Virus record (IMG/VR): IMGVR_UViG_3300009504_000946
Location: 1 to 64,000 of that record
Source of the DNA: a virus
Direction: 5' to 3' (one strand)
DNA length: 64,000 nucleotides
Each line of letters begins with the position of its first letter. The stretch's first letter is position 1. A program made the position numbers and the translations under genes. The notes beneath the pieces were generated by a model, which did not search any database, was not told the origin of the DNA, and saw only the letters and a program-made list of their open reading frames with translations. Positions 5,078-44,891 of the stretch are shown piece after piece.

Positions 5078-5635
5078 TTATTTAAAATTTGGCTCAACGA
5101 AATCAATTGACTTCAAAACCTTATTATCATTTTTTCTCTTAATAATCCAGTATTCACCAACCTTTTCATGGTAGCACTCAATTACATCTCCCATCTTATT
5201 TGGGTGTGTTCCCTTTGCATATGCTTCAACTGACTCTTGCGCTTGTTCTTCTGTGGAGCAAAACTTTGAGAAGTTTGAATCCATTACTTCACTGAAGTCT
5301 TCGTTAAACTTATCTTGTATTCCCGCAAAATGAATTAGATTACCCATAACCACTCTTAGGTCTGCACATGCATCTCTAAGTTCTGTTAAATCTCCTTCTT
5401 TTCTACCTCTTTCTTTTTCTTCTAATGAATTTATTATTTTAGAAGCGGCACTTTTCATTGTCAACGCAAAATCAAGAAGTTCTTCATCTGAACCAGATTC
5501 TGCTGCTTCAATTAATTCCTCAAGAACCAATCCAAGGGCAAGTTGAAACTTGTCACTCTCTGGAAACTTTGGCTCACTTGGAGCTTCTACTCCCGCAAGA
5601 GTTAGCCAGTCTGATATTCTTTTTTGTTCATTCAT
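5078..5635 (-). CDS. MazG/PRA-PH-like nucleotide pyrophosphohydrolase
   Basis: 185 aa with the all-alpha NTP-PPase signature: LVLEELIEAAE, then DLTELRDACADLRVVMGNLIHFAG. The C-terminal third carries a phosphoribosyl-ATP-hydrolase-like tail (HPNKMGDVIECYHE). The family hydrolyses NTPs or alarmone-like nucleotides and is frequent in phages. A second MazG-like gene is at 32896-33417. Confidence 0.75.
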   Translation of the reverse strand: MNEQKRISDWLTLAGVEAPSEPKFPESDKFQLALGLVLEELIEAAESGSDEELLDFALTMKSAASKIINSLEEKERGRKEGDLTELRDACADLRVVMGNLIHFAGIQDKFNEDFSEVMDSNFSKFCSTEEQAQESVEAYAKGTHPNKMGDVIECYHEKVGEYWIIKRKNDNKVLKSIDFVEPNFK

Positions 5636-11049: not shown

Positions 11050-12294
11050 TTATTTCTTATAAAATTCTTTTCTAATTTTGATAAGAGTTTCATCAATTAA
11101 TTTAGTTGGAACTTCATCTGGCAGACCACTATCATCAAATAGAACAATAAGGTCTTCCATTTCTTTCTCAGCCCAGGTAATAAGCTCTTCAAGCTTAACC
11201 CTACCTTTTCTGATGTCGAGAAGCTCTTCTCTATTAGGCCTTCTGATAGTCATAGTTCCAGTCTCTGCAATTTCTCTTGCAATCTGCAGCAATCTCTTGC
11301 AGTGCATAAGGTTCTTGCCATCATACTGTTGACCATGCTCCTTGTTATCAACCCATCGCTGCTCATTTCTGTTAACAAGCCAATCTTGATAAGAATTATA
11401 ATCTTTGCAATGAGCTGTATAGCCATCTTTGTTATAAACTATAATGGCCATAACTTCTTCTCCCTTTGGAATTGATGAAAGTCTAAGTTGATTTGACTCA
11501 GCTACATTTTCGCCAACACCCGTCTTAGCAATACCTTTATATCCAAGACCAACTGTTCCACCCCCTCTTTTATAGTGATTTTTATTAAACTCCCTATCGT
11601 CCTCACTTTCAAGTTCTGAAAAACAATAGTGAGCCTTGTGGTCATAAAATAAGGCATATACATCTCTGGCATTTGGAATCTTTGAGATACCACAAAACTT
11701 TTGTTCTCTCCCAGTTTCCTCAAGCCAAACTTTAATAGGCTTTGTGCCATAACCCTCGATTACATAACAGAAGTCGATAGGCTCCTTACGAGTAACTCTA
11801 TCTTTTTCCCAATTCTGCATCTTATCCATTCCTCTTGCCTTCTGAATTTGCTTGCGAGCATATCCAGCAAATGAACTCTTACACCTCTTTGTTAGAAGCT
11901 GGTCCCTCATGTCAATCGCATGTTGATATACTGGATGCTTTGTAATAATGCAATCCTCTGGACTGTAAAATAATTCTAAGACTGTTGGGTTATTGCTGTG
12001 AGCAAGCTCCAGGAACCTTCGAATTTCAAATCCAGTGTAATCTGCGTGAACTCTAATTTGGTCTTTATATTCAAAGTCAAGTCCATATAAGTATTCTTGA
12101 GGAAGTATATATACAAATGATTTATCTATATCTGACTCTGGAGTGTTTGTCCCATGTGCCTGAGAACCAGTAATAGCCTCAAATAAGATGCAATTATTAT
12201 CTTTAAGAAAATGATAAAACTCAAGGGCTTTTTGCTCCTTGAGTTTCATTTCATTTTCCTTATTTTTTAAATCTTGTTCAATTGCCTTTGTCAT
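11050..12294 (-). CDS. RlaP-like nucleotidyltransferase (DNA polymerase beta superfamily, RNA repair)
   Basis: 414 aa from the ATG at 12294. FEAITGSQAHGTNTPESDID near residue 40 is the NTase GSxxxGT..SDxD signature. Length and helical C-terminus match the RlaP family (PF10127), found in RNA-repair contexts. The ATG is only 5 nt downstream of the CGTATAA promoter box, so the message would be almost leaderless. It lies 5 nt upstream of the PolA-like gene. Confidence 0.78.
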   Translation of the reverse strand: MTKAIEQDLKNKENEMKLKEQKALEFYHFLKDNNCILFEAITGSQAHGTNTPESDIDKSFVYILPQEYLYGLDFEYKDQIRVHADYTGFEIRRFLELAHSNNPTVLELFYSPEDCIITKHPVYQHAIDMRDQLLTKRCKSSFAGYARKQIQKARGMDKMQNWEKDRVTRKEPIDFCYVIEGYGTKPIKVWLEETGREQKFCGISKIPNARDVYALFYDHKAHYCFSELESEDDREFNKNHYKRGGGTVGLGYKGIAKTGVGENVAESNQLRLSSIPKGEEVMAIIVYNKDGYTAHCKDYNSYQDWLVNRNEQRWVDNKEHGQQYDGKNLMHCKRLLQIAREIAETGTMTIRRPNREELLDIRKGRVKLEELITWAEKEMEDLIVLFDDSGLPDEVPTKLIDETLIKIRKEFYKK

Positions 12295-12299
12295 ACCAC

Positions 12300-12327
12300 T
12301 TATACGTAACAATTTAAAAAATGTTTC
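12300..12327 (-). promoter_or_regulatory. phage promoter motif GAAACA-N15-CGTATAA
   Basis: Upstream box GAAACA at 12327-12322 and CGTATAA at 12306-12300, with 15 nt between. It reads toward the RlaP-like gene, whose ATG begins at 12294. One of eleven copies sharing identical spacing. Confidence 0.8.
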
Positions 12328-19931: not shown

Positions 19932-21014
19932 TTATTTTACCTTATCCAAATTTTTATTCTTCAAATCTCTTAATTGCTCAATTAATTTTTTTTCATCTTC
20001 CGAATATTCACCTGGAACTTCAAGAGCCAATTCTACTACATAATCTCCAAAAGCATTTTCATATCCAGGCCCTGGTTTTATTTGTGGAGGCAAGTTTAAA
20101 ATTGGCATACCACGACCCTTCATTCTATATGATTTTCCATTTTGAGTTCCTGGCTCAACCACAAAGGTAAGAAACTTACCCTCTACTGTTGGCACCTCTA
20201 TCTTTGTTCCAAGAACAAGGTCTTCATAGCTAATTTTATGTCTATGTAACAAAGAAGCGCCTCTTCTCTCAAATTTGTCATGCTTTAACTCTTCAATTAT
20301 AAAGACAACATCTCCACGGTCTGCTCCACTTACCCTTGAGTAATGTCCTTTCCCTTCTGCGGCTATACTTTGACCATGCTCAACCCCTCGTGGGAAGGTT
20401 ACGACAGCATTTTCATTTTCTATTTCCACCCCACTCCCATGACAAGTTGTGCAAGATTCAATAATCACCCTTCCAGTACCAGAACATTTACTACAAGTAG
20501 AAGTTCTTTGCATAAAGTGAGCACCAGCTCTCAGTATTTTAGTTTCCTGTCCACTACCACCGCAAGTTGTACACGTATGAAATGCTGTTCCATTTTTGGC
20601 TCCATTTCCAGTGCAACTTGAACAGATTTTCTGAACAGCATATGAAACCTCTTTGTCACATCCATTATAACACTCCTCAAGAGTTAGAGATATTTTTACG
20701 TGAGCGTTTTTTCCTTTTGCAGCCTGTCTGCCAAATTCATTCATAAAATGCTCATAGTGACTTCCAAATCCACCATAACCTCCAGAAGCAGCCTTATCCC
20801 AATCGTGGCCATATTTATTATACAGCTTTCTTTTTTCTGGGTCACTCAACACATCATTAGCCTCGTTGATTTCCTTAAACTTTTCTTCAGCCTCTTTATT
20901 GTCTGGATTTTTATCAGGATGATATTTCATAGCCATCTTACGATACGCCTTCTTGATTTCATCATCAGAAGCCCCACTTTGCAGTCCTAATATTTCGTAA
21001 TAATCTCTTTTCAT
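19932..21014 (-). CDS. dnaJ: DnaJ-type chaperone
   Basis: 360 aa with the full class A layout: J domain with HPD (YHPDKNPDN) at about 5-70, a short Gly-rich linker, four zinc-finger repeats ([32 protein letters not shown]) at about 132-195, then the substrate-binding C-terminus. Presumably recruits host DnaK. It overlaps the Pnkp stop by one base. Confidence 0.92.
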
Positions 21015-23698
21015 TATAATCTTGGGTCAAGTTCTTTTTCATTTCTCTCTTCAAGGACCATTTCTCCATAAGCCTGGATAAAATGCTCATTTTCCTTGTT
21101 AATTAAATTATATGGAATTTCAAGGATTCTCTTTCCTATTTCCCACTCCTTTACAGAAACCTCAAGTTTTCTCTTAATTCTCTTTCTTTGAATTAATTTT
21201 GTGAACTTGGATTCAATTTGATAATCTGGGCCATAAACAATGGTTAAGTATCTTGGGTTACGAACTTTAATTGAGGGGGCCACGCCTTTAACATAAACAG
21301 TTAGGGGCTTAAGCATAATTCCCTCCATCTCATCAATCAATGTGGTCTTGTCATAAAAAGTCTTAAGCAATTCTATGTCCTCCTGATTGTTAACGTCAAC
21401 AACAAGATAGTTATCTGAATTAATTCCCTTGTAGATGTCCTCGTTTGACTCATTGAAAAACAGTTTCTCTGTTCCATCCTCGAACACCTCTTTCAAAATA
21501 GAAAATGGTTTAAAGTAAACGTCTCCATCTGCACCATATAGCTCAATTTGACGTGAGTATATTTTTGTAAGGGCTTCAAGTTCATCAATACCTGGAAATT
21601 CTCTCACATAATCTTTTATACATCTAAACGTTCTCTCATTATTAGAGCCAATCAAATCGGATAAGTCTTTTTTTGAAGTCTTATTGGAGATTTTTTCAAA
21701 ATCACAATCCTTATATGGACCATTGTAAACATTTTCTAAAGCTTTATCAAACCCTGTTGTCTTCAAAAACTCTATTTCACTTGAGATAGCCTTGTCAACA
21801 GTTACGAAACTACTTTCAATTAACCCTCGCCCAATTGCTGACCAAGGAAGAAGTTCTGCATCTAAAATTATTAGCTCAGTATTCTTACTAAAAGCTTCCT
21901 TGATATATGGCAAGTCATATAGTGGCTTGTAAGCCTCTGTTAAGTCAACCTGTGTTTCCTTGATGATGTGGCCACCTCTTGATGTTGTATAATTCTTCTC
22001 TGGGTTCTTAAAAAGATATATATTGGCTCTTGAACCCATATACTTAGGTTGAGCAATAATTTTTTCAACACCCTTCCTTCTAAAATACTCTATACCTTGT
22101 TCGAGAGACTCAAGCTGACTATCAGCAAGTATAATATTCTTATCCTCATCCTTAGCTAATAATTTATCAGCTGGGCACACAGTTCCAGAAATAAAATTTA
22201 CCTTATTTTCTGCAGCCGTAAGTATTCTATCCCTTTCACGTCCCTCAAGTGTGTCAATAGATATTTTTGCTATTGGAGCCGCAAAAAACTCTTCAAGATT
22301 CTTCTTAACAATTTTTTCATTATCGTGAGCAGAAATCTTATTCACAAAATGACGACCACTGCTATTGATATTTATAGAGGTTAAGTGACCACCGCTAACA
22401 GCTCCAGAGTCAATGTTTATTTTATTGTACAGCTTGGACATTCCCTTGCTCGACACATGACCGAATAAGTGAATTGGCAGAGACCTGCTTGCTTGGTCTC
22501 TAAAAAACTTAAAGAATTTTGACTTAGCAGCCATATAATCTTGAGGATTGCCAAATTCTATTTCTTTTGGATATACGATTGTTCTCTGATTTCTTTCTGA
22601 TACTGAACCGAGTTTTCCAAGATACTTTTGGTCACAAGGCGCATGAGTAACAATAAAGTCTTCATGCTTTAAAAAAGGCTTCATAGATTCACAAACTACA
22701 AAGAATTTCTCTTTTAGCTCCTCATTAGATTCAAACAACTTGATGCTATCGAAATAAGTATCAATTACATCTTGTGGCGGAAGGTCCTTCGTGGGTATAT
22801 CGCCCTTGAGGTATCTGTATACGAAATTTTCATGATTACCCTTTACTACATAAAATAAGTCAAGGTTATTATAGACAAGCTCAATAACACCACCCACATC
22901 ATAACCTTTATCAACAAGGTCACCAACAAGGATAATTCTCTTATTTTCTTCTACGTGTGATATTTTCCCATCCTTAATCTCAAATCCATTTCTATCAAGA
23001 AGAGCCAAAAACTCTTCATAACAACCATGGATGTCACCGATGGTGGTATAATCAAATTCTGAACTTAACAAGCATTCTTGATATTGCTCGTGGTTAATAA
23101 CATTTATCTCATAGTCCTCAACATCATGAGACTTAACTCTGTAAATGTCCTGGAAGGTTTTCTTACTAATCTCACGCATTACAGTATCTCTCATATACTC
23201 AAGCTGGCGAGATGTAACAGCCTTACTTTCTTCATCACCAATAAATCGGTAATAAGGCTCCCTACCCTTGTAATCAAACATAATTACAACAAGATTGTAA
23301 TTATTATCATCTGCAATATTTTTAATGCTGTCACGAAATTCTTTGCTAAGACCAGTTGTGTCAACAATAACAAAATCAGTGTTGATTGGATATGAAGTCA
23401 GGGCCCTAACTCTTGCATCAAGAAGGTTAAAGGCTTGCTTGCTGGCATACATCATCTTTGGGTCTTTTTTAGATAGATTCATGTCACCAAGAAGTTCTCT
23501 TCTAATTTCATCAGAACTAACATGAGAAACAGATGCATTCCCAAGTGCATTAATAGATGGCAATATTCTGTTCTCAGCAAAATATGTCTTTCCACAGCCA
23601 CTTGGACCAACCATTAAAATAATAGTATGCAACCTTAAGTCAATTGTAACAATATCTTTCCCAGTTAAGGCTTCTTTATTTAAAGTTTGATTCTGCAT
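21014..23698 (-). CDS. pnkp: polynucleotide kinase-phosphatase-ligase (Pnkp), RNA repair
   Basis: 894 aa from the ATG at 23698. Kinase: P-loop [10 protein letters not shown] at about 31-40. Binuclear phosphatase: [11 protein letters not shown] near 225, [16 protein letters not shown]. Ligase/adenylyltransferase: motif [13 protein letters not shown] near 545 with later E/K motifs. This is the complete bacterial Pnkp that heals and seals broken tRNA with Hen1. The upstream TTG-initiated extension overlaps the promoter, so I reject it. The Hen1 gene precedes it. Confidence 0.9.
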
Positions 23699-23705
23699 AT
23701 AATTC

Positions 23706-23733
23706 TTATACGTTAATTTCAAAAAAATGTTTA
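23706..23733 (-). promoter_or_regulatory. phage promoter motif GAAACA-N15-CGTATAA (TAAACA variant)
   Basis: TAAACA at 23733-23728, 15 nt, then CGTATAA at 23712-23706. The pnkp ATG starts 7 nt further on. It gives pnkp its own transcript, separate from hen1. Confidence 0.75.
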
Positions 23734-25062
23734 ATTAAATTTGATAATAATTCCCTGACTCGGAGTAATGCCATCAACGACATCTCCAATGCCAAACCAT
23801 TGACTTGAATATTGCTTGCTACTTTTCCCAAGACAATCACTCATGAATTTTTGAAACTCAATGTTATCCCACTCGAAATCGTGGTCATCGTGACGCATTC
23901 CAGTCATGAAGTAATTTGCATTAAATCTCACATCAGGAGTTGTCACAATAAGGCTATTGATATTGGGAATTTTCAAAATAGCTTCAATTAATTCAGCAGC
24001 AGCTTCTGGTTGCATGTGCTCAATTACTTCAGTACACACAACATCAGTTGGGACCACTTCTTCTGTGGTAAATTTTTCTGATTGCAATAGTTCATCAATC
24101 GTCTTGAAAAAATGTACATTTTTCAAACCCTTATTCTTAACTCTACGCTCTGCATCAGCACGAACCTCATCATCAATATCAATGGCAAAATAGTCATTAC
24201 CCTTCATGTACTTACTAAATCTGGTAATATACTTTCCTTCACCACATCCAACATCAACTATGTCATTTTTGAAATCGAGTCTTTCCTCGATTGCCATCTG
24301 GCGAGCTTGCCATGTATCACCAAATGTCATCTCTATATTGGACTTTATATTCTTAGAAAGCTCATCCTTAATAACTCCAAAACCTTCAATATTTCTATTA
24401 AATGTGTTCATACCCCTAATGAATCGAATCTTAAATAGGTATCTCAAGAAATATGGAGCATCAATAACATTCATACATCGAATGTATTTAGCTATGTTGT
24501 CATCTCCAATGAAATTTGGCTCATTATTTACAATAGCATTAAATATTCCAAATAGGCTTGCAAAATTCAATAATTCAAATATTGTTTTATTTGTCGTTAT
24601 TGTGATTTGATAATTATTTCTGTTAATTAGCTTTGCATCAACTTTATATTCTGGGAAATAATCTTCAAAAGCAGCAATGTACCTTTCGTTCTTGATGTGA
24701 ATCATGTTAATAAAGAATGAGCTCATCTTTCCTTCTGATTCTTTTATATCCCCGTTTGGAGTCGAAAATTCAGGTGACTTAAATGCACTTCTGAACATTT
24801 CATCAATTGCACTAACAACAAATGACGCAGAATTATATCTGGTTTCATTTAGATATTCAAACTCTTCTCCTTCATATGCTGGAAAAGACACTTCGTCACT
24901 CCCATCTTTAAAAAAAATGTTGTATGAGCTTTCATCACCTTCTGTAAAGTATCCAAAAACAATACCCTTCCTAAGATTCTTAGCAGATAAACCACTCTTT
25001 GGATTCTTGCTTATGATATATGAGAACATTGGGTTCTCACTCTTAAGTTGTATAATACTCAT
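23731..25062 (-). CDS. hen1: Hen1 RNA 2'-O-methyltransferase (RNA repair partner of Pnkp)
   Basis: 443 aa. N-terminal ~220 residues match the Pnkp-ligase-associating Hen1 region. The C-terminal methyltransferase has DVGCGEGKYITRF near 273 (SAM site), CTEVIEHM near 350 and the RHDDHDFEW metal-binding motif near 397. Hen1 methylates the repair junction so that it cannot be re-cut by the same ribotoxin. It lies directly upstream of pnkp, as in bacterial Pnkp/Hen1 cassettes. Confidence 0.9.
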   Translation of the reverse strand: MSIIQLKSENPMFSYIISKNPKSGLSAKNLRKGIVFGYFTEGDESSYNIFFKDGSDEVSFPAYEGEEFEYLNETRYNSASFVVSAIDEMFRSAFKSPEFSTPNGDIKESEGKMSSFFINMIHIKNERYIAAFEDYFPEYKVDAKLINRNNYQITITTNKTIFELLNFASLFGIFNAIVNNEPNFIGDDNIAKYIRCMNVIDAPYFLRYLFKIRFIRGMNTFNRNIEGFGVIKDELSKNIKSNIEMTFGDTWQARQMAIEERLDFKNDIVDVGCGEGKYITRFSKYMKGNDYFAIDIDDEVRADAERRVKNKGLKNVHFFKTIDELLQSEKFTTEEVVPTDVVCTEVIEHMQPEAAAELIEAILKIPNINSLIVTTPDVRFNANYFMTGMRHDDHDFEWDNIEFQKFMSDCLGKSSKQYSSQWFGIGDVVDGITPSQGIIIKFN

Positions 25063-26348: not shown

Positions 26349-26505
26349 TTTTACTTGAATTAATTAGAGTATCAATGAATTTTGTATTCATTTTATTATC
26401 TTCCACTTCTATATCAACAGGTTTATTATAAAAAAAAGATAATATAAACAAAGTTGATATTCCGATTCCCATCATTACTAAAGAAAATATAATTACCTTT
26501 TTCAT
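26326..26505 (-). CDS. small membrane-anchored protein, 59 aa
   Basis: ATG at 26505 inside the kptA stop (ATGA overlap), stop TAG at 26326. Starts MKKVIIFSLVMMGIGISTLF, an N-terminal membrane helix, followed by an acidic-to-basic tail. It overlaps the exonuclease start by 23 nt. Coding status is supported by tight coupling and length without stops, but no family is recognised. Confidence 0.45.
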   Translation of the reverse strand: MKKVIIFSLVMMGIGISTLFILSFFYNKPVDIEVEDNKMNTKFIDTLINSSKNEHRKRQ

Positions 26506-27047
26506 TCTTGTTTTTTTATATATTTTACTGGAACCTCGTCTGTCAGATAAACTCCATTCTCTGACTTATAAATTTTATATCCATCAGCTCTCATCCTCAT
26601 GGCTTCGACCTCAAGTATTGTGAACTTACCCCTTCTTGAACCAACGATAGCCGCAGTCTCCTTATCTGGAGACAAATGTACGTGATGGCGTGACATTTTT
26701 TTGAGTCCTTCTCTCATTATTATGTCAACAACACCGACTGGAGCTCCATGATATAAAATCTGAGGAGGTATTACCTCATCAAGTTTAAGGTCAACCGAAA
26801 CTGAGTGTCCCTGGTTTGCTCTTATCATAATCAAGTCTTCGCTTATTGAAAACCTCTTCTTATCATTGTTGTTAACGACATATTTTAAGTCATCAAAATC
26901 AAAATCAATCTTAGACTTTGCATTTTCAATCAAAATGTCAATATTTGTCCACCCACCCTCATTTAGCTCAATTCCAATTTGTTCAGGATTGTGACGAAGC
27001 CAATACGAGAGTGACTTGCTAATTTTTTTTTCTCTATTTTCGTTCAT
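26502..27047 (-). CDS. kptA: RNA 2'-phosphotransferase KptA/Tpt1
   Basis: Removes a 2'-phosphate from a repaired RNA splice junction using NAD+, releasing nicotinamide and ADP-ribose 1'',2''-cyclic phosphate. 181 aa with the family sequence SKSLSYWLRHNPEQIGI (R-H catalytic) near residue 10, YHGAPVGVVDIIMREGL near 98 and HHVHLSPDKETA near 121. It sits next to a NadR-like gene and 1.4 kb from the Pnkp/Hen1 run. Confidence 0.9.
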   Translation of the reverse strand: MNENREKKISKSLSYWLRHNPEQIGIELNEGGWTNIDILIENAKSKIDFDFDDLKYVVNNNDKKRFSISEDLIMIRANQGHSVSVDLKLDEVIPPQILYHGAPVGVVDIIMREGLKKMSRHHVHLSPDKETAAIVGSRRGKFTILEVEAMRMRADGYKIYKSENGVYLTDEVPVKYIKKQE

Positions 27048-32162: not shown

Positions 32163-32506
32163 TTTCCTTTAATTGTTACTTCGCCATTTTTTATTTCAAT
32201 TATAATTGCAATTTGACCTTTATATCGCCTCGGAGTAAAGTTAATTTCCTTTAGAGCCCTTTCTTTTTCATCACCCTCAAGACCTGGTAGGCATTCCTCT
32301 AAATATTCCTCCTTACTCATTTTTTCCATAAACTGAGCCTTGGTCATATTATATTTATACTCACGTTTTCCACCTACCTCTATTATTAGGTCAGTTCTAT
32401 CTCCGTTGGTTGGCGGAATGGATGTAACATCAGTTCTAACAATAATCTGCTCACCACAACGATAGTGGTCATTCATCTCCAGTGTCCACTTATTCTTTTG
32501 TTTCAT
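32159..32506 (-). CDS. hypothetical protein, 115 aa
   Basis: Not recognised. Beta-rich with a charged central helix (KMSKEEYLEECLPGLEGDEKE). Overlaps the neighbours on both sides. Confidence 0.5.
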   Translation of the reverse strand: MKQKNKWTLEMNDHYRCGEQIIVRTDVTSIPPTNGDRTDLIIEVGGKREYKYNMTKAQFMEKMSKEEYLEECLPGLEGDEKERALKEINFTPRRYKGQIAIIIEIKNGEVTIKGK

Positions 32507-32912
32507 GATTTTTTAAGTCAGTTAACAACTGTAGCTTACCAACAATTGGTTCACAATCCTCAACATAATTTGGTCCAACTGCAACAACTGTATAATTTTC
32601 TCCCTCAAGACCAAACAAGCCAGCATCCTTAATTAAAGAGGCATTGAGTCCAGCATCTTTTGCGGCATTATACACCTTTAGAAGTTGGTTCTCATTTTTA
32701 ACTTTTTTAGTAATCTTTGTAAATCTTCCATCAACCCACTCCAACTCCTCATCTGTCAAATGTAAAGTTCTCTCTGACCTATCAGTTGGCAATACAAACA
32801 TCTTATCAAAAAACACTTTCATACAAGCGTGAGCAGCTTGTGCGGCAAGTTTACCAGCATTCATTGGAAGGTCGGTCCTTACAATTATGTATTGCTTAAC
32901 TTCCTTTTCCAT
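32490..32912 (-). CDS. pth2: peptidyl-tRNA hydrolase, Pth2 (archaeal/eukaryotic) type
   Basis: 140 aa from the Met at 32912 (MEKEVKQYIIVRTDLPM). NAGKLAAQAAHACMKVF matches the Pth2 GKxAAQCxHA signature, and LIKDAGLFGLEGENYTVVAVGP matches the catalytic LIxDAG strand. It frees tRNA from stalled peptidyl-tRNA. Bacteria normally use the unrelated Pth1, so this type is noteworthy. It overlaps the MazG-like gene. Confidence 0.85.
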   Translation of the reverse strand: MEKEVKQYIIVRTDLPMNAGKLAAQAAHACMKVFFDKMFVLPTDRSERTLHLTDEELEWVDGRFTKITKKVKNENQLLKVYNAAKDAGLNASLIKDAGLFGLEGENYTVVAVGPNYVEDCEPIVGKLQLLTDLKNHETKE

Positions 32913-33417
32913 CTTCAATTCTCTTATTAACAATATTCTCCCACTTAATGTTCTTCTCAGAAATTTTAGCAACCACCTCAGACTCCTTAATATCGTAGTA
33001 AGCAGTTAAGCTAAGAACTTTAGAAATGCATCTATTGAATTGATAAATCAACTCTGGGTGATTTGTCTCAAACCTGTAAACAATACCACCAACATACTTA
33101 AATACTTTTGGTAATATGAACTCTGGCTTAGTACCATCTGGTTTATGTGAGCCATCAATAAACTGGTCCCTAAACACAGAGTAGTCAAGGTCATAGGTGT
33201 CAGCAAAAGATAGTAGACATTGAATTGTATCTGCAGCCTCCTCCTTAATTTCTTCAAGTATTTGCTCACTGGTAAGTGTTGTTGCTTTTCTTCCAAGCTT
33301 CATATTTACTGCACGAGCAAACTCGCCAACTTCCTCAAACAACTTACACAATCTCAACTCAGAAGAAGCTGGGTCAAGTCTATTGATTCTCTGAATTTCT
33401 TTATATGTGTTTTTCAT
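32896..33417 (-). CDS. MazG-like nucleotide pyrophosphohydrolase
   Basis: 173 aa. LCKLFEEVGEFARAVN near residue 25 and EEIKEEAADTIQCLLSFAD near 54 form the two metal-binding helices of MazG (EExxE, ExxD). Phage MazG often degrades alarmones or damaged NTPs. Located between pth2 and ppk2. Confidence 0.82.
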   Translation of the reverse strand: MKNTYKEIQRINRLDPASSELRLCKLFEEVGEFARAVNMKLGRKATTLTSEQILEEIKEEAADTIQCLLSFADTYDLDYSVFRDQFIDGSHKPDGTKPEFILPKVFKYVGGIVYRFETNHPELIYQFNRCISKVLSLTAYYDIKESEVVAKISEKNIKWENIVNKRIEDGKGS

Positions 33418-37896: not shown

Positions 37897-37924
37897 AAAA
37901 AAAGTACCCTACTTTAGAGGATAC
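37897..37924 (-). terminator. intrinsic terminator after the tRNA-Gln array
   Basis: Six-pair stem GTATCC / GGGTAC (37904-37924) followed on the minus strand by seven T. It lies 7 nt past the last tRNA-Gln. Confidence 0.7.
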
Positions 37925-37930
37925 ATTTTG

Positions 37931-38003
37931 TTGCCCACCCAGGGCTCGAACCTGGACTCTTCTGTGTCAAAAACAGACGTGTTGCCAATTACACCAGCGG
38001 GCA
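37931..38003 (-). tRNA. tRNA-Gln (UUG), copy 1
   Basis: 73 nt cloverleaf. Acceptor TGCCCGC/GTGGGCA, anticodon stem TCTGT/ACAGA with loop TTTTGAC (anticodon UUG), T arm CCAGG-TTCGAGC-CCTGG, A73. Reads CAA. Near-identical copies are at 38148 and 38274. Confidence 0.9.
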
Positions 38004-38010
38004 ATATTTG

Positions 38011-38094
38011 TTGTGCAGGTAGGATTCGAACCTACAAAGGATTTCTCCATACTTGATTCAAAGTCAAGACGCTTGCCAGTTTGCATACTGCACA
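38011..38094 (-). tRNA. class II tRNA with UUG anticodon (Leu-like body)
   Basis: 84 nt. Perfect acceptor TGTGCAG/CTGCACA, anticodon stem CTTGA/TCAAG, loop CTTTGAA (UUG, a Gln anticodon). The variable region is about 16 nt, and the D arm (ATGCAAACTGGCAAGC) and A73 resemble tRNA-Leu. A long variable arm is unexpected for tRNA-Gln. It sits inside the tRNA-Gln array. Confidence 0.75.
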
Positions 38095-38147
38095 ATATTT
38101 GTTTCCCATATCTATTGCTTTACCTCACTTATGGGGAGTGAATTTTG

Positions 38148-38220
38148 TTGCCCACCCAGGGCTCGAACCTGGACTCTTCTGTGTCAAAAACAGACGTGTT
38201 GCCAATTACACCAGCGGACA
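38148..38220 (-). tRNA. tRNA-Gln (UUG), copy 2
   Basis: 73 nt, identical to copy 1 except near the acceptor 5' end (TGTCCGC, giving a T-G pair). Anticodon loop TTTTGAC. Part of a ~126-bp tandem duplication with copy 3. Confidence 0.9.
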
Positions 38221-38273
38221 ATATTTATTTCCCATATCTATTGCTTTACTTCACTTATGGGGAGTGAATTTTG

Positions 38274-38346
38274 TTGCCCACCCAGGGCTCGAACCTGGAC
38301 TCTTCTGTGTCAAAAACAGACGTGTTGCCAATTACACCAGCGGACA
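38274..38346 (-). tRNA. tRNA-Gln (UUG), copy 3
   Basis: 73 nt, same sequence as copy 2. First tRNA-Gln reached by transcription after the 84-aa gene and the attenuator. Confidence 0.9.
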
Positions 38347-38353
38347 ATATATC

Positions 38354-38608
38354 TTAATTCATTTTTTCTTTCCAAACTTCTTTTATCTCCTCATCTGAAA
38401 CTCCAACCTCAGACATTCTACTATGCATCATCATTAATTCAACACATAGACAAACATCGAGTCCCAACTCAAACCTCTCCACGGCTTTGTCAAAATATTT
38501 ATCAAATATTATGGGACCACCCCTTTCTAAAAGAGTTAGTGTATATCCCTCTTCACATTCTGAACAAAGTACTTTTTTACCTTTTATTATTATTTCTTTA
38601 ATTTCCAT
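38354..38608 (-). CDS. hypothetical protein, 84 aa, between attenuator and tRNA-Gln genes
   Basis: Not recognised. Starts MEIKEIIIKGKKVLCSECEEGY; one CxxC and a helical Met/Glu-rich C-terminus. It is the only protein gene controlled together with the tRNA-Gln array. Confidence 0.55.
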   Translation of the reverse strand: MEIKEIIIKGKKVLCSECEEGYTLTLLERGGPIIFDKYFDKAVERFELGLDVCLCVELMMMHSRMSEVGVSDEEIKEVWKEKMN

Positions 38609-38626: not shown

Positions 38627-38656
38627 AAAAAAAGCCTGAACTAATCAGTCCAGGCT
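38627..38656 (-). terminator. attenuator terminator behind the poly-Gln leader
   Basis: 10-bp stem AGCCTGGACT / AGTTCAGGCT (one G-U) with loop GATT, then seven T on the minus strand. Its 3' arm is perfectly complementary over 10 nt to GCCTGAACTA at the end of the leader ORF, an alternative pairing. Confidence 0.85.
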
Positions 38657-38685
38657 CTCAAATATTTTGTTTTTTAACAAATAGT

Positions 38686-38763
38686 TCAGGCAACACCAGG
38701 ACCGTCCTCTCTCGAAGATTGCTGCTGTTGTTGCTGAGCTGATATGTTAATTACGTTTTTCAT
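38686..38763 (-). CDS. poly-Gln leader peptide (25 aa)
   Basis: ATG at 38763, TGA at 38686. Peptide MKNVINISA, then six consecutive Gln (CAG CAA CAA CAG CAG CAA), then SSREDGPGVA. It lies 30 nt upstream of an intrinsic terminator, beyond which come an 84-aa gene and four UUG-anticodon tRNAs. A second leader at 44790-44891 begins with the related MKNINNIS and has the same arrangement. Too short for a normal gene; best explained as a stalling leader. Confidence 0.7.
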   Translation of the reverse strand: MKNVINISAQQQQQQSSREDGPGVA

Positions 38764-38848
38764 TTCTCTAATAAATAGTTTTATTTTTAATAAACTTGTT
38801 TTTGCAACAATAAACCTTGTTAGTTTATTGTGTACTTTTTACTTGTTG

Positions 38849-38930
38849 TGACCGAAGCGAGACTCGAACTCGCACGCCCTGCGGCAACGGCTTCTTAGAC
38901 CGCCTTGGCTACCAATTACAACACTCGGCC
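38849..38930 (-). tRNA. tRNA-Leu (AAG)
   Basis: 82 nt, class II. Acceptor GGCCGAG/TTCGGTC, A73, anticodon stem GCGGT/GCCGT with loop CTAAGAA (AAG, reads CUU), long variable arm. The 5' end lies 9 nt after the CGTATAA box. Confidence 0.85.
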
Positions 38931-38939
38931 ATTTTTATC

Positions 38940-38967
38940 TTATACGCAAATTTAGTTCTTTTGTTTC
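38940..38967 (-). promoter_or_regulatory. phage promoter motif GAAACA-N15-CGTATAA
   Basis: GAAACA at 38967-38962, 15 nt, CGTATAA at 38946-38940. Starts the tRNA-Leu / poly-Gln leader / tRNA-Gln unit. Confidence 0.82.
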
Positions 38968-38973
38968 AAATAA

Positions 38974-39273
38974 TCAAACTTTTTTTGCAAAAACTTTCTT
39001 TATTTTTTCTGATATTAATTCAATAGGGTTTATCTTAAGCAATACAAAAGAAAGTAAAAAGAATAGGGATGCCAATACATAAAATATATATGTTGTAATC
39101 CAATAGTCCCCTGACAATTTCATCACGAGAGCAAATAGTTCTGCATACCCGAATGGGTTCAGAAATGTTGCTATCATTAAGCAAAGAATCCCTATGTTCT
39201 TTCTGTTTCTCATAATCCCCTGTACTGTCTGATTCCATTTAATCAATTTTTGTTTAACAATAGAATATTGCAT
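38974..39273 (-). CDS. small membrane protein with two helices
   Basis: 99 aa. Hydrophobic segments at about 28-50 and 60-80, Lys-rich tail. Its ATG lies within a 10-bp perfect inverted repeat (39265-39290), which may restrict translation. Confidence 0.55.
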   Translation of the reverse strand: MQYSIVKQKLIKWNQTVQGIMRNRKNIGILCLMIATFLNPFGYAELFALVMKLSGDYWITTYIFYVLASLFFLLSFVLLKINPIELISEKIKKVFAKKV

Positions 39274-40863: not shown

Positions 40864-40879
40864 AATCTTTAATTTTTTG

Positions 40880-40962
40880 TAGCCCAGGCGAGAATCGAAC
40901 TCGCACTCCACAAGGGAACAGAATTTTAAGTCCTGCGTGTCTACCAGTTTCACCACTGGGCC
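40880..40962 (-). tRNA. tRNA-Leu (UAA), class II
   Basis: 83 nt. Acceptor GGCCCAG/CTGGGCT, A73, anticodon stem CAGGA/TTCTG with loop CTTAAAA (UAA), 14-nt variable arm. Ordinary tRNA-Leu form. It lies 16 nt before the ATP-grasp A start. Confidence 0.9.
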
Positions 40963-40974
40963 ATTTTTTAATAT

Positions 40975-41016
40975 GAGTGTTCATTATCCCAATCTATTCA
41001 CGTAATGTGAACACTC
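40975..41016. repeat. inverted repeat in tRNA spacer
   Basis: GAGTGTTCA / TGAACACTC, 9-bp perfect arms, between tRNA-Leu(UAA) and tRNA-Leu(CAA). Possibly a processing hairpin in the polycistronic tRNA precursor. Confidence 0.55.
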
Positions 41017-41036
41017 CAAAATAATGAACAATCTTG

Positions 41037-41117
41037 TACCGATGGAGAGAGTCGAACTCTCACGCCTTTAGGCACTGGGTTTTGAATCCAGCGTGTCTAC
41101 CATTCCACCACATCGGC
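41037..41117 (-). tRNA. tRNA-Leu (CAA)
   Basis: 81 nt, class II. Acceptor GCCGATG/CATCGGT, A73, anticodon stem CTGGA/CCCAG (one mismatch next to the loop), loop TTCAAAA (CAA, reads UUG), variable arm GCC..GGC. Confidence 0.88.
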
Positions 41118-41131
41118 ATATGCTGAGGCTT

Positions 41132-41683
41132 TCACTCAGCTGCTTTATATTTTCTAAAAGTCAAACTTACTCTCGGACCACAATCTCTATCATGCTTTGG
41201 AATCCTGTGTAAGTGTGTGTCTTGGAATCCTGGAGGCATGTAAAACAATGAGCCATTTTCTAACTTCCTTTTATTCTCATCTGGGACCATACCCTTTTCC
41301 CCTTTTTCTTTCCACCATATTTCTCTCTCTGCCCCAAATGACACAACTGCAATTCCATCATTGTGGTCAATTGAGTGAGAATCATCAGCGTGCCATCCTA
41401 ATCCATTTCTTGAGCTAACATACATGTTTAAGAAGCAAATATCCAAGCTTGTTCCTAACTTCTCATTCACCTTATCCATTATAGACTTAACTATAGGAAT
41501 CATTGGAGTTGACTTATAGGTAGGAGCTCCGCTGTGGTCTAAGTAAGAATATTCAATGTCAGAGTTTGCCATAAAGCACTCTCTTCTCATCTTTGTCTCA
41601 TCAACCCAACTTACTTCCTTCACTAATGTGTCAATAAAGTCTTCGTCAATTAACTTGTCTATGTAAACTAAATTTTTCATCAT
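41132..41683 (-). CDS. alkB: AlkB-like 2-oxoglutarate/Fe(II) dioxygenase
   Basis: 183 aa from MMKNLVYIDK; the earlier Met lies in tRNA DNA. Iron ligands: HxD in NGLGWHADDSHS near 110 and the distal H in HLHRIPKHDRDCGPRVSLTFR near 160, with R..S.TFR binding 2-oxoglutarate. Repairs methylated nucleic acid; in a tRNA operon, RNA demethylation is a reasonable guess. Flanked by tRNA genes on both sides. Confidence 0.85.
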   Translation of the reverse strand: MMKNLVYIDKLIDEDFIDTLVKEVSWVDETKMRRECFMANSDIEYSYLDHSGAPTYKSTPMIPIVKSIMDKVNEKLGTSLDICFLNMYVSSRNGLGWHADDSHSIDHNDGIAVVSFGAEREIWWKEKGEKGMVPDENKRKLENGSLFYMPPGFQDTHLHRIPKHDRDCGPRVSLTFRKYKAAE

Positions 41684-41694
41684 TTTTATTTTTG

Positions 41695-41768
41695 TGACCC
41701 CTATGGAATTCGAATCCATACTATACGCTGTTTAAGAACGTTGCCTCTGCCTATTGGGCTAAGGGGCC
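41695..41768 (-). tRNA. tRNA with UAA (Leu) anticodon on a class I body
   Basis: 74 nt. Acceptor GGCCCCT/AGGGGTC, A73, D stem GCC/GGC, anticodon stem ACGTT/AGCGT, loop CTTAAAC (UAA), variable region only 5 nt (ATAGT), T arm ATGGA-TTCGAAT-TCCAT. A well-formed tRNA whose Leu anticodon does not match the short variable arm expected for Leu. Confidence 0.85.
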
Positions 41769-41776
41769 AAATCTTG

Positions 41777-41874
41777 TGTGTTGAGCAGGATTCGAACCTA
41801 CAATAAGGAGATACTGCGCAATATCTTTATCCTCACGACTAAATCGCATGTCTAACCTCTTTCATCATCAACAC
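41777..41874 (-). tRNA. class II tRNA-like gene with extended variable arm, isotype uncertain
   Basis: 98 nt. Acceptor GTGTTGA/TCAACAC perfect, A73, D stem ATG/CAT, T arm GTAGG-TTCGAAT-CCTGC. The anticodon arm is TGCGA-TTTAG-TCGTG. If the A-T closing pair opens, the loop is ATTTAGT with U33, anticodon UUA and G37, which would read the ochre codon UAA. The variable arm is unusually long (about 28 nt, itself able to pair). Confidence 0.6.
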
Positions 41875-41878
41875 ATGG

Positions 41879-41952
41879 TACACCTGGAGGGAGTCGAACC
41901 CCCAACCTCACGAGTCGTAATCGTGTGCTCTATCCAGTTGAGCTACAGGTGC
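41879..41952 (-). tRNA. tRNA-Arg (ACG)
   Basis: 74 nt. Acceptor GCACCTG/CAGGTGT, A73, followed by an encoded CCA. Anticodon stem CACGA/TCGTG with loop TTACGAC (ACG). Pairs functionally with the phage ArgRS at 7.1-8.3 kb. Confidence 0.92.
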
Positions 41953-41962
41953 ATATTTCCGA

Positions 41963-42286
41963 TTACTCGGAAACTTTTATAAATTCACCAGACTTAATTG
42001 CCTTTCCAATCCATCTGTTAAGCTCAGAACCTCTCATCTCCGCTGAGAAAGTTGTTGTCCCAAGGTCTGCAGACAATGTTGTAACTACATCTGGTTCCTT
42101 AACTTCTGCACCAACTTCTAAAGTTGATACATGATGTGTAACTTCAACGTCAATAGTCGAAATAGGAAATTGATAAACTCCACCTTCCAACTTTACAGTG
42201 TAATATAAATTACCACTCACATAGTGACTAAGCTTAGCCATCTCTTTGCTTTTAAAAAGCTCTTTTTTTACTTCTAACTCGTTCAT
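41963..42286 (-). CDS. hypothetical protein, 107 aa
   Basis: Not recognised. Starts MNELEVKKELFKSKEMAKLS; beta-rich centre with repeated E-V-T strands. Sandwiched between tRNA-Val(GAC) and tRNA-Arg. Confidence 0.55.
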   Translation of the reverse strand: MNELEVKKELFKSKEMAKLSHYVSGNLYYTVKLEGGVYQFPISTIDVEVTHHVSTLEVGAEVKEPDVVTTLSADLGTTTFSAEMRGSELNRWIGKAIKSGEFIKVSE

Positions 42287-42302
42287 TTCTTATAAAGTTA
42301 TG

Positions 42303-42375
42303 TAGGACTTACAGGGCTTGAACCTGCGACCTCTTGCATGTCATACAAGCGCTCTACCAACTGAGCTAAAGTCCT
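42303..42375 (-). tRNA. tRNA-Val (GAC)
   Basis: 73 nt. Acceptor AGGACTT/AAGTCCT perfect, A73, anticodon stem CTTGT/GCAAG, loop ATGACAT (GAC). Its 5' end overlaps the last codons of leuS by 10 nt. Confidence 0.88.
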
Positions 42376-43655
42376 GTATTAAAATTTGGAGCAAAACACC
42401 TTACTATTTCTGTAAGTGCAGCAGCTGTGCTCCCTGTCAACTGCTTATTCTTATTTTTATTGTAGAATTCCATCAAAGTGCTTATTACCTTATTAAACTT
42501 GAAGGATTCTACATATCCATCAATAGTATATTGCAAATCAATTATATCTTTAGCGGTTACACCCTCACTTACACCCTCACTTACACCCTCAATCCATCTA
42601 TTCCATTTACCTAAAGCCCTTCTTATTCCACTAATCTTTGAGTCATCCCAATCTCCGCCTTCGAAGTAGTGTCCAATGAACATCAAGTACATTCTCAACT
42701 CATCTGGGTCGTAGTCATCTGGGTTTACAACATTCCCAATTGACTTTGACATCTTGACCCCATCTTTGGTAATCATTCCCTGGTGAATCAATTTCTTGAA
42801 TGGTTCCTCACATGTAACAATTCCTTGGTCATACAAGAACATATTAATAAATCTTGCATAAATCAAGTGCATGCATGCATGTTCATTTCCACCAACATAC
42901 AAGTCCACTTGTTTGTATTCATCCTTAGGCAAAAACTCACTATCACTATCTGTCAAATATCTCAAGTAGTAAAATGAGCTATCAACAAATGTATCCAAAG
43001 TATCAGTTTCTCCATCTACAGGAATTGGACATCCCCAACTCCTCTGTCTTGATACACACCAATCATTCAAATTCTCAAGCCAGTGTCTCTGTTGCTTCTT
43101 TGTCTTCTCTGGGTAGTCAATCCAATCCAAGTTTTTAATCAACCTGTCTTTATAATCTGTAATTTTAAAGAACCACTGATTCAACTCTCTTACCTCAACT
43201 TGCGACTTACATCTATCACACTTCTCCTCTTTTACCTGCTCATTTGCCAATACAGTTTCACAACTTGGGCAGTAATTTACTGGAGCAACTTTCTTATAAG
43301 CCAATCCAGCATCTTTCAACTTCAAGAACAACCACTGTGTCCATTTTTGATAGCTTGGGTCAGATGTAACCAATTTCTCTTCAAATTGAGTATTCATATT
43401 CTGCATCTGCCACCTAAATCTCTCAATGTTCTTATAGGTTATTCTCCTTGGGTCTCCACCTTCTTTCTTGGCCTGGTTTTCTGCAGGCAATCCGAATGAG
43501 TCATATCCAAAAGGTTGGAACACGCTTATTCCTTTAAAATTTTTCCATCTGCAGTAAGAATCAATTACCGCATAATTGTAAGCATGTCCAACATGCAAAC
43601 CATCACCTGAAGGATATGGAAACATTGTCAAGCAGTAAAAATCTTCCTCTTTCAT
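42366..43655 (-). CDS. leuS: leucyl-tRNA synthetase lacking the CP1 editing domain
   Basis: 429 aa from MKEEDFYCLTMFPYPSGDG. HIGH box DGLHVGHAYNY near 19-29, GYDSFGLPAENQA near 56, zinc site CPSCETVL..CDRC near 135-155, KMSKSIGNVVNPDDYD near 315. LeuRS normally has 800+ residues; here the sequence passes from RELNQWFFKITDY straight to ENLNDWCVSRQRSWGCPIP and on to LYVGGNEHACMHLIYARF, so the ~200-residue CP1 editing domain is missing and the C-terminal region is short. Frames extending upstream run through tRNAs and are rejected. The TAG stop lies inside tRNA-Val. Confidence 0.9.
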   Translation of the reverse strand: MKEEDFYCLTMFPYPSGDGLHVGHAYNYAVIDSYCRWKNFKGISVFQPFGYDSFGLPAENQAKKEGGDPRRITYKNIERFRWQMQNMNTQFEEKLVTSDPSYQKWTQWLFLKLKDAGLAYKKVAPVNYCPSCETVLANEQVKEEKCDRCKSQVEVRELNQWFFKITDYKDRLIKNLDWIDYPEKTKKQQRHWLENLNDWCVSRQRSWGCPIPVDGETDTLDTFVDSSFYYLRYLTDSDSEFLPKDEYKQVDLYVGGNEHACMHLIYARFINMFLYDQGIVTCEEPFKKLIHQGMITKDGVKMSKSIGNVVNPDDYDPDELRMYLMFIGHYFEGGDWDDSKISGIRRALGKWNRWIEGVSEGVSEGVTAKDIIDLQYTIDGYVESFKFNKVISTLMEFYNKNKNKQLTGSTAAALTEIVRCFAPNFNTGL

Positions 43656-43667
43656 AATCTTTTTTTT

Positions 43668-43698
43668 GCGCTTGCGCCAGTGAGCAAAGCGAGTTGTA
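43668..43698. repeat. 31-bp GC-rich repeat, copy 1
   Basis: Begins GCGCTTGCGCCAGTGAGC and ends at the 3' end of tRNA-Val(UAC). Recurs at 43778-43808 with one mismatch, spaced 110 bp. Contains GCGC/TTGCGC symmetry and is much more GC-rich than its surroundings. Confidence 0.85.
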
Positions 43699-43769
43699 GG
43701 ACAGGAGGGACTCGAACCCCCGACATCTTGCATGTAAAACAAGCGCTCTACCAGCTGAGCTACTATCCT
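43697..43769 (-). tRNA. tRNA-Val (UAC), copy 1
   Basis: 73 nt. Acceptor AGGATAG/CTGTCCT, A73, anticodon stem CTTGT/GCAAG, loop TTTACAT (UAC). Very similar to tRNA-Val(GAC) at 42303, suggesting duplication with anticodon change. Confidence 0.88.
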
Positions 43770-43777
43770 ATTTTTAT

Positions 43778-43808
43778 GCGCTTGCGCCAGTGAGCGAAGC
43801 GAGTTGTA
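43778..43808. repeat. 31-bp GC-rich repeat, copy 2
   Basis: Same element as 43668-43698 with A to G at one position, abutting the 3' end of the UAG-anticodon tRNA. Position just behind two tRNAs suggests a 3'-processing or recombination signal. Confidence 0.85.
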
Positions 43809-43880
43809 CCCTCTGTCAGATTCGAACTGACACTGTATGGCTTCTAAGGCCATCGCCTCTACCAATTGGGCTAAGAGGGC
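43807..43880 (-). tRNA. tRNA with UAG (Leu) anticodon on a class I body
   Basis: 74 nt. Acceptor GCCCTCT/AGAGGGT, A73, D stem GCC/GGC, anticodon stem ATGGC/GCCAT perfect, loop CTTAGAA (UAG, reads CUA), variable ACAGT only 5 nt, T stem GTCAG/CTGAC perfect. Shares the D-arm sequence TTAGCCCAAT with the tRNA at 41695. Confidence 0.88.
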
Positions 43881-43891
43881 ATTTCTATTGT

Positions 43892-43927
43892 TGGCCAAAT
43901 GTGGTATTTAACTTCTACATTTGGCCA
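43892..43927. repeat. inverted repeat in tRNA spacer
   Basis: TGGCCAAATGT / ACATTTGGCCA, 11-bp perfect arms with a 14-nt loop and no T-run, between two tRNAs. Likely a processing hairpin. Confidence 0.65.
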
Positions 43928-43933
43928 CTTTTG

Positions 43934-44008
43934 TACTCCCTGTTGGACTCGAACCAACGACCCTTGCCTTGTAAGGGCAATGCTCTGAACCAACTGAGCT
44001 AAGGAAGC
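43934..44008 (-). tRNA. tRNA-Val (UAC), copy 2
   Basis: 75 nt. Acceptor GCTTCCT/AGGGAGT with two G-U pairs, A73, anticodon stem TTGCC/GGCAA, loop CTTACAA (UAC). Confidence 0.88.
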
Positions 44009-44035
44009 ATTCTAAATTTATAATTTCGTCTTCAG

Positions 44036-44121
44036 CTTGCCAAGCAGGACTTGAACCTGCACGCCCTATTACGGGCAGCCCTTCTTACAGAGCCCATGTC
44101 TACCAATTCCATCATTGGCTC
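44036..44121 (-). tRNA. class II tRNA-like gene, possibly Tyr (GUA), degenerate
   Basis: 86 nt. D stem ATG/CAT, variable arm GCCC/GGGC, T arm GCAGG-TTCAAGT-CCTGC are good. The acceptor GAGCCAA/TTGGCAA has two mismatches at the end. The anticodon arm fits only as GCTCT-GTAAGA-AGGGC with a 6-nt loop containing GUA. May be decaying. Confidence 0.5.
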
Positions 44122-44177
44122 GCCTTAGACCAGAACTTCATAGAGTTTGCAACCTCTTATTCATTCTGACAATTGTG

Positions 44178-44250
44178 TGGTGATGGAGGGAATTGAACCC
44201 CCGACACATGGATTTTCAGTCCATTGCTCTACCAACTGAGCTACATCACC
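44178..44250 (-). tRNA. tRNA-Phe (GAA), copy 1
   Basis: 73 nt. Acceptor GGTGATG/CATCACC perfect, A73, anticodon stem ATGGA/TCCAT, loop CTGAAAA (GAA). Confidence 0.92.
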
Positions 44251-44310: not shown

Positions 44311-44387
44311 TGGTACGGACGAGAGTCGAACTCGTGACCTCTGGGGTTTCAAGCCAGCGCTCTACCAAAAAACTGAGCTACCATACC
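44311..44387 (-). tRNA. tRNA-Phe (GAA), copy 2, enlarged D loop
   Basis: 77 nt. Acceptor GGTATGG/CCGTACC, A73, anticodon stem CTGGC/CCCAG (one mismatch next to the loop), loop TTGAAAC (GAA). The D loop has a T6 run. Upstream spacer carries the 14-bp palindrome ACACCTGCAGGTGT (44292-44305). Confidence 0.78.
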
Positions 44388-44502: not shown

Positions 44503-44533
44503 ACTCTTACTCATCACCACCTAAATTTTTTTG

Positions 44534-44669
44534 TGGAGGGGGCTGGACTCGAACCAGCGACACGGTGCTTTCAATGCAAACGAAGTATCTCACATTCTCA
44601 CCACTAACAAAAGGGAAAACGAAGTAAGGTTTTTTTTCTAACCTGCTCTACCAACTGAGCTACCCCTCC
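44534..44669 (-). tRNA. tRNA-like gene with ~60-nt insertion in the anticodon arm
   Basis: 136 nt. Good acceptor GGAGGGG/CCCCTCC, D arm GCTC..GAGC and T arm GCTGG-TTCGAGT-CCAGC. Between D arm and 3' anticodon strand lies extra sequence holding two ACTTCGTT copies and a segment resembling the spacer and 5' end of the next tRNA (44430-44502). Removing it would give GGTGC/GCACC around ATTGAAA. An intron or a recombination scar; isotype (Ser UGA or Phe GAA) not settled. Confidence 0.5.
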
Positions 44670-44733: not shown

Positions 44734-44763
44734 AAAAAAAGCCCGAACAGTAGTTCGGGCTTT
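44734..44763 (-). terminator. attenuator terminator behind the Leu/Val/Phe leader
   Basis: GCCCGAAC / GTTCGGGC, 8-bp perfect plus AAA/TTT, loop of 4, then seven T on the minus strand. The leader segment AGTTCGG (44812-44818) is complementary to CCGAACT of its 5' arm, giving a competing antiterminator. Confidence 0.9.
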
Positions 44764-44789
44764 CAAATATCTTTTATATGATTATAACA

Positions 44790-44891
44790 TCAACTTAAAG
44801 ACATATTACGTCCGAACTCTTGTCTACTAAAGACAAATAGTAATTGCACTTGCAATAAGAGTTGACGTGATATGTTGTTAATGTTTTTCAT
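44790..44891 (-). CDS. Leu/Val/Phe/Gln-rich leader peptide (33 aa)
   Basis: ATG at 44891, TGA at 44790. MKNINNISRQLLLQVQLL, then FVFSRQEFGRNMSLS. It follows the promoter at 44935 by about 45 nt and precedes a perfect terminator by 26 nt. The transcript then enters tRNAs for Phe, Val, Leu and Arg, plus leuS. Leu codons are CTC TTA TTG TTA CTA. N-terminus and layout match the poly-Gln leader at 38686-38763. Confidence 0.7.
   Translation of the reverse strand: MKNINNISRQLLLQVQLLFVFSRQEFGRNMSLS

Follow-up and report, generated by a model that had tools for sequence, protein, structure and literature searches.

The glutamine unit and its relatives

The DNA analysed here, referred to as the window, comprises positions 1-64,000 of the 66.6-kb IMG/VR record IMGVR_UViG_3300009504_000946, which is apparently a fragment of a huge-phage genome. 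Nearly all gene-like long open reading frames (ORFs) are located on the minus strand, as are all window features whose coordinates are given below. At least 17 tRNA matches are present, together with synthetase genes for AsnRS, MetRS, GluRS and LeuRS and a gene for an ArgRS-like protein.

The Gln unit is preceded by a gene for tRNA-Leu with anticodon aag (38848..38930; ARAGORN and Rfam). Upstream of both, a motif search located TTTG-N20-TAAATTTG (38947..38978), a match to the Bacteroidetes-type promoter consensus TTTG-N17-22-TAnnTTTG. The same position and order of tRNA-Leu(AAG) relative to the leader (5342-5424) is seen in L036, a relative that was found through the window AsnRS (the two enzymes are 73% identical), and the ~50 bp surrounding the promoter match show 86% identity. 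Because it sits between promoter and Gln leader, the tRNA-Leu gene would in both be transcribed regardless of an attenuator.

The leader ORF (38763..38686) encodes MKNVINISAQQQQQQSSREDGPGVA in 25 codons, of which codons 10-15 form a run of six Gln codons, CAG CAA CAA CAG CAG CAA (38736..38719). These are the putative regulatory codons. A pattern search finds such a six-CAR run only once in the 66.6-kb record, and it appears in none of 200 sequences simulated for the window with a first-order Markov model, so that it is unexpected by chance. Immediately 3' of the run, predicted folds and alignment place a segment 1:2 hairpin (TCTTC-GAGA-GAGGA, 38718..38705) with a GNRA loop in window and L036 alike. 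The leader tail ACGGTCCTGGTG (38705..38694) forms segment 2, the putative antiterminator partner of the terminator 5' arm (38657..38646); the predicted duplex amounts to -13.8 kcal/mol and is kept in L036. The segment GCCTGAACTA (38691..38682) lies across the stop codon and is exactly complementary to the terminator 3' arm over 10 nt (-15.2 kcal/mol), of which 8 nt are retained in L036. The intrinsic terminator itself (38659..38630; L036 counterpart 5594-5620) is a stem of 13 pairs (-17.5 kcal/mol) formed by segments 3 (5' arm) and 4 (3' arm), with a U run behind it.

Beyond the terminator lie an 84-aa ORF (38608..38354) and four tRNA-Gln (UUG) genes at 38273..38346, 38147..38220, 38010..38094 and 37930..38003 (ARAGORN and Rfam), the third with a variable region 11 nt longer. 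A terminator-like site from the terminator scan (37904..37924) closes the array. No relatives of the 84-aa ORF were found among viral contigs or phages, nor any family match, and it is missing in L036; it is therefore dispensable for the arrangement. The preliminary description, made from the letters of the window, had already listed the 25-codon ORF with its six Gln codons, the 84-aa gene and four UUG tRNAs, and the exact complementarity between leader end and terminator 3' arm, and all of these are present. The intrinsic terminator is there as well, though its stem begins 26 nt beyond the stop codon rather than the 30 nt given.

The leader of L036 (MKTVININVQQQQQQQSSKEDSPGGA, 5484-5564) has seven Gln codons, one whole Gln codon more than that of the window, and is followed by the terminator and then directly by four tRNA-Gln genes. 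A nucleotide search with the window region among phage records returned matches of tRNA length only, and searches with the 155-aa neighbour ORF and the exact terminator pattern gave no matches. A whole-record search for the CAR x6 pattern revealed one site (two overlapping matches) in the 642-kb LR756502, located 5' of tRNA-Gln genes and then a GlnRS gene. The 634-kb LR745206 shows the same leader/tRNA-Gln/GlnRS order with leader MTTTQQIQQQQINQTD. Viral contigs were subsequently scanned with the GlnRS pair from these two records, and Gln-rich leaders were seen in L051, L053-L058, L060 and L072. Leader, terminator, tRNA-Gln and GlnRS are contiguous in nine huge-phage contigs (L051, L053, L054, L056, L057, L060, L072, and W01 and W02, which are the two LR records). 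In L055 the leader and tRNA-Gln are present with GlnRS ~0.75 kb further downstream, and L058 has the Gln leader and terminator without a tRNA. L059 encodes the same GlnRS type with neither tRNA nor leader near it, and no such leader was found at the bacterial-type GlnRS loci examined among L061-L071. The preliminary description had proposed leader-peptide attenuation of the tRNA-Gln array and had made conservation of the Gln run in homologous loci decisive for it. The run is conserved, and the comparison strongly supports the proposal, as run, terminator and order are kept in L036 and the nine GlnRS-bearing phages.

Three Pro/Asp leaders (L043 6959-7066, L044 6704-6799 and L060 3227-3316) also contain several Gln codons (PQPQ, DQDQPD) and are located upstream of the Gln unit. 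This suggests layered control via read-through.

Leaders and tRNA arrays across huge phages

The arrangement extends well beyond Gln. A short ORF and terminator before tRNA genes, which the preliminary description had proposed to look for in related phages, were found in 68 units across 14 huge-phage contigs. Each of these leaders employs the amino acids of the tRNAs downstream, and the gap from stop codon to terminator is mostly 18-37 nt. The earlier picture of a Gln-sensing system is thus right in that the Gln leader matches the Gln array, but the system is not Gln-specific, since other arrays have matching leaders. HKHFSKSNKWF, for example, precedes His/Lys/Phe/Trp tRNAs, and MTTNSTHKNFSKSHKWFSNQ.. 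precedes His Phe His Phe Trp Lys. The Arg Ser array is led by MKTINNTSKSSSRSSS.., Glu Tyr by MNTITNIASYESYYEE.., Ile Gly Ala by MKNLNNISIAVIGNGAGAI.., Asn Leu Val Ile Thr by MTTMNLNMTMNLTLNVVNITL.., and Pro Asp by ..APVNPQPQDQDP... In LR756501 (735 kb) and LR756504 (636 kb) the tRNAs are grouped otherwise and the leaders differ correspondingly: NMIQEQMQQIQ before Met/Gln/Ile/Glu, TPAPAVAFRRGTGTGTGT before Arg/Thr/Val/Ala/Gly/Pro, IAIVEIAVIGGAEEG before Glu/Ala/Ile/Val/Gly and IAMIIRMRII before Arg/Ile/Met. A permissive scan added three more, among them a KKKK leader in front of three tRNA-Lys genes. Some single tRNAs (Met, Cys, Arg) have no leaders, and the Cys unit of G001 is weak (3 Cys in 35).

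The match was evaluated by shuffling arrays among the leaders of one genome, with the ORF picked blindly as the longest before each terminator. The true pairing is the single best permutation in nine of the ten genomes (rank 1/5040 in four, 1/720 in three and 1/24 in two). In the tenth it ranks 9/5040; here the longest-ORF rule picked the wrong frame for the Gln unit. Since the units of one genome are mostly non-homologous, this within-genome test is not inflated by shared descent, whereas comparisons between genomes partly are, homologous leaders not being independent events. In frame, 36.5% of leader codons specify cognate residues, compared to 15.9% and 12.2% for the two alternative frames. 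Together with the permutation result, this excess in one frame shows that the signal resides in the translated codons and not in base composition.

These tests bear directly on the simplest alternative, namely that the hairpin merely ends the upstream tRNA transcript while the short ORF is open by chance. A tRNA-Leu gene does lie just upstream of the Gln leader on the same strand, and terminators between operons are ordinary. Nonetheless, the permutation and frame tests already contradict this explanation: the leader residues fit the downstream arrays in every genome tested, and solely in the right frame. In addition, the regrouped arrays of W03 and W05 carry recoded leaders, and leader and terminator arm co-vary (see below). 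We consider a chance frame extremely improbable.

The window holds a second unit, retrieved by the unit scan. Its leader ORF MKNINNISRQLLLQVQLLFVFSRQEFGRNMSLS (44891..44790; conserved in L036 at 1312-1416) is of the Leu/Val/Phe/Arg type, and the leader tail GAGTTCGGA pairs with the 5' arm of the terminator at 44764..44737 (duplex z -2.9). The array behind it (40879..44250; ARAGORN) reads tRNA-Phe, Val, Leu, Val, Val, Arg, Leu, Leu, Leu and includes a LeuRS gene (42366-43853, longest ATG frame; profile match). Two further elements were observed near the start of this array. A tRNA-like sequence (GGAGGGG...CCCCTCCA, 44533-44667) has a long insert in the anticodon-arm region and could possibly be an intron-bearing or broken tRNA; the motif ACTTCGT recurs within it and in the next tRNA. 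The tRNA at 44311-44387 is matched by Rfam and not by ARAGORN, its anticodon is apparently TGA, and it lacks the long variable arm that a tRNA-Ser normally has.

According to profile matches, synthetase genes cognate to the leader are found in several of the operons. GlnRS occurs in the Gln units, LeuRS in the Leu units of the window and W05, GlyRS and AlaRS in the Ile/Gly/Ala unit of W01, AsnRS in the Asn/Leu/Thr/Val/Ile unit of W01, SerRS in the Ser/Arg unit of G003 and ThrRS in the Thr/Asn/Arg unit of W03. Class II enzymes of the D/K/N or G/H/P/S/T group accompany the His/Lys/Phe/Trp, Asp/Pro and Glu/Tyr/Gly units. As a side observation, the phage LeuRS proteins are short, with ~500 aa or less (window 42366-43853; L109 7456-8979), and that of W05 aligns to the LeuRS profile in two segments separated by a large gap, as if lacking the editing domain. 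A Thg1-like gene (tRNA-His guanylyltransferase family; L048 7377-8189) stands right after the Ile/Gly/Ala operon of LR745206.

The Bacteroidetes-type promoter motif is present at most 250 nt 5' of the leader in 36 of the 68 units against 0.043 expected, a frequency that fits Bacteroidetes hosts, as judged from the motif. Of 2.9 million viral contigs, 11 contain the peptide HKHFSKSxKWFS, which is absent from the 84,980 prokaryote genomes searched; in all ten contigs with enough downstream sequence the His/Phe/Lys/Trp array comes next.

Pairing between leader and terminator

Leader tails pair better with their own terminator than with others. Over 60 units the mean predicted energy of the tail with its own 5' arm is -12.4 kcal/mol, against -7.8 with the arms of other units, and compared to shuffles the duplex reaches a mean z of -2.8. 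Considered on its own, the window Gln unit has a 2:3 duplex that does not exceed shuffles of its GC-rich tail (z -1.1), and the case for pairing in the Gln unit consequently rests on L036 and the family. The Pro/Asp unit of L072 fails the duplex test (z 0.3): its stem is shifted, and inspection by eye suggests partial pairing of the leader tail with the loop. As the MAFFT alignments of the leaders are too indel-rich for column-wise pair counts, co-variation was assessed by swapping arms within leader families. The own arm outdoes homologous arms in 62 of the 68 units, which amounts to co-variation; in L058, for instance, AGGTTGAATG stands opposite CATTCGACCT where others have AGATTGA opposite TCAATCT.

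Another possibility is that the leader works as a peptide, through nascent-chain arrest or as a small regulator, and not via codon-specific stalling. Peptides are indeed kept within a family, as with HKHFSKSxKWFS. Across families, however, only the array-matching composition is held in common, and the leader tails track their RNA pairing partner, which makes a role of the peptide itself very improbable.

Similarly, the RNA might be untranslated and structured (a riboswitch, a T-box-like element or a small RNA), sensing tRNA or amino acid directly. Relative to shuffled sequences, the Gln leader region has a much more stable predicted fold (z -4.6 in the window, -3.6 in L036), and T-boxes are generally known to regulate synthetases in other bacteria. 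Yet Rfam shows no regulatory family at gathering score, and its T-box and glutamine riboswitch models have no match at that score or among the weak matches. The signal is confined to one reading frame and consists of whole codons of several amino acids, and the Gln run differs between window and L036 by one whole codon. Direct sensing by the RNA is judged highly unlikely. Sub-threshold Rfam leader matches (Thr_leader, trpB) were taken as chance; otherwise Rfam gave tRNAs only.

To model the states of a ribosome-mediated attenuator, the RNA beneath the ribosome was blocked at the cognate codons or at the stop codon. Before the 3' arm is made, the predicted probability of sequestration of the 5' arm is 0.75 with the ribosome on the cognate codons and 0.08 with the ribosome at the stop. 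With a shuffled upstream region the value is 0.43, and the observed value is higher than the shuffled one in all 68 units. Without any ribosome it is predicted at 0.63, which would allow a possible basal read-through in the absence of translation. For the full-length RNA at equilibrium the terminator is favoured in every ribosome state (0.82-0.96), so the switch must be kinetic; known attenuators also decide kinetically.

The preliminary description had taken the pairing of the leader end with the 3' arm as a possible alternative fold. This pairing exists and is partly conserved, but the general antiterminator is the leader tail with the terminator 5' arm, to which the GCCTGAACTA/3'-arm pairing may add. 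The latter is unlikely on its own to pre-empt the terminator, because the 3' arm is synthesised last; it could hold an already opened terminator open.

Attenuation as the probable control of phage tRNA supply

Taken together, we are confident that the locus is a ribosome-mediated transcription attenuator of phage tRNA genes, one of a set over most tRNA arrays of these huge phages. We infer that the leader is translated, that ribosomes stall on it and that stalling operates the switch, along the following lines. RNA polymerase would start upstream, and the short leader would be transcribed and immediately translated. With abundant charged tRNAs for the leader codons (here Gln), the ribosome would reach the stop codon and cover segment 2; terminator 3:4 would then form and the array would be off. 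If the cognate tRNAs are scarce, the ribosome would stall on the cognate codons, covering segment 1 and leaving segment 2 free to form 2:3 with the terminator 5' arm ahead of synthesis of the 3' arm. Polymerase would then transcribe the tRNA genes and, in many of the relatives, a cognate synthetase gene as well. As mixed arrays have mixed-codon leaders, one leader could monitor several amino acids.

The design resembles the trp, his, leu and thr leaders of enterobacteria, with a short leader ORF containing many regulatory codons, alternative 1:2, 2:3 and 3:4 pairings, an intrinsic terminator, and a stop codon near or within segment 2. Here, however, the setting is phages and the targets are tRNA arrays and synthetases; many leaders hold codons for two to six amino acids, and the units of a genome cover most of its tRNA arrays. 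In pheM-pheST of E. coli a cognate-codon leader peptide likewise controls a synthetase (phenylalanyl-tRNA synthetase), but this concerns a single amino acid and a cellular operon in which tRNA genes are not the target. The T-box, mostly of Gram-positive bacteria, also induces a cognate synthetase by antitermination when charged tRNA is low, but it binds the tRNA directly without translation, and no T-box match is present at this locus. T5, KVP40, XacN1 and other large phages share the tRNA clusters for many amino acids and differ in the control: in T5, KVP40, XacN1 and one 485-kb phage no cognate leader and terminator units were found before the arrays at the standard or permissive threshold.

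A survey of huge phages reported tRNAs and synthetases in such genomes, including one of 735 kb (PMC7162821); "leader" and "attenuat-" are absent from its main text, and a review of jumbo phages (PMC7824862) contains neither "attenuat-" nor "leader peptide". No report of leader peptides or attenuation with phage tRNAs was found in the open-access literature outside bioRxiv, so an unseen report is possible. The parts are those of classical ribosome-mediated attenuation, whereas the targets, the multi-amino-acid leaders, the genome-wide use and the phage setting appear to be new.

What the attenuators respond to would be low charged tRNA, probably arising from cleavage or decay of host tRNAs during infection; a host defence may cause this depletion. 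The same attenuator might instead serve amino-acid economy, sensing a low amino acid and not replacing a lost tRNA. Sensing of charged tRNA cannot separate the two causes, and classical attenuators are generally known to sense amino acid supply. On the other hand, the controlled genes are tRNAs and synthetases and not those of amino-acid synthesis, and the window also encodes proteins for RNA repair and ribosome rescue: Pnkp-like (PNKP ligase/phosphatase, 21014-23722), Hen1-like (23731-25062), KptA (26502-27047), an RlaP-like nucleotidyltransferase (11050-12312) and Pth2 (32490-32972). To judge from these assignments, the genes would suit a phage facing tRNA cleavage, as a tRNA-repair and ribosome-rescue set. 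An economy role is in our estimate rather unlikely. It is plausible, and is put forward tentatively, that the multi-amino-acid set forms a tRNA-damage response: host anticodon nucleases or host shut-off would remove particular tRNAs, ribosomes would stall on the matching leader, and only that group of replacement tRNAs and its synthetase would be induced, beside RNA repair of the Pnkp/Hen1/KptA/RlaP type.

Phage tRNAs are usually viewed as a fixed codon-usage supplement or as replacements for cleaved host tRNAs. The units described here suggest that the phage carries a dedicated sensor for each tRNA group, with the leader codons stating what is sensed. The purpose of phage tRNAs thereby becomes testable by moving a single 150-bp leader before a reporter, and the leader rule offers a way to recognise regulated tRNA operons of uncultured phages computationally. 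Overall, this suggests a translation supply under feedback control in the largest phages.
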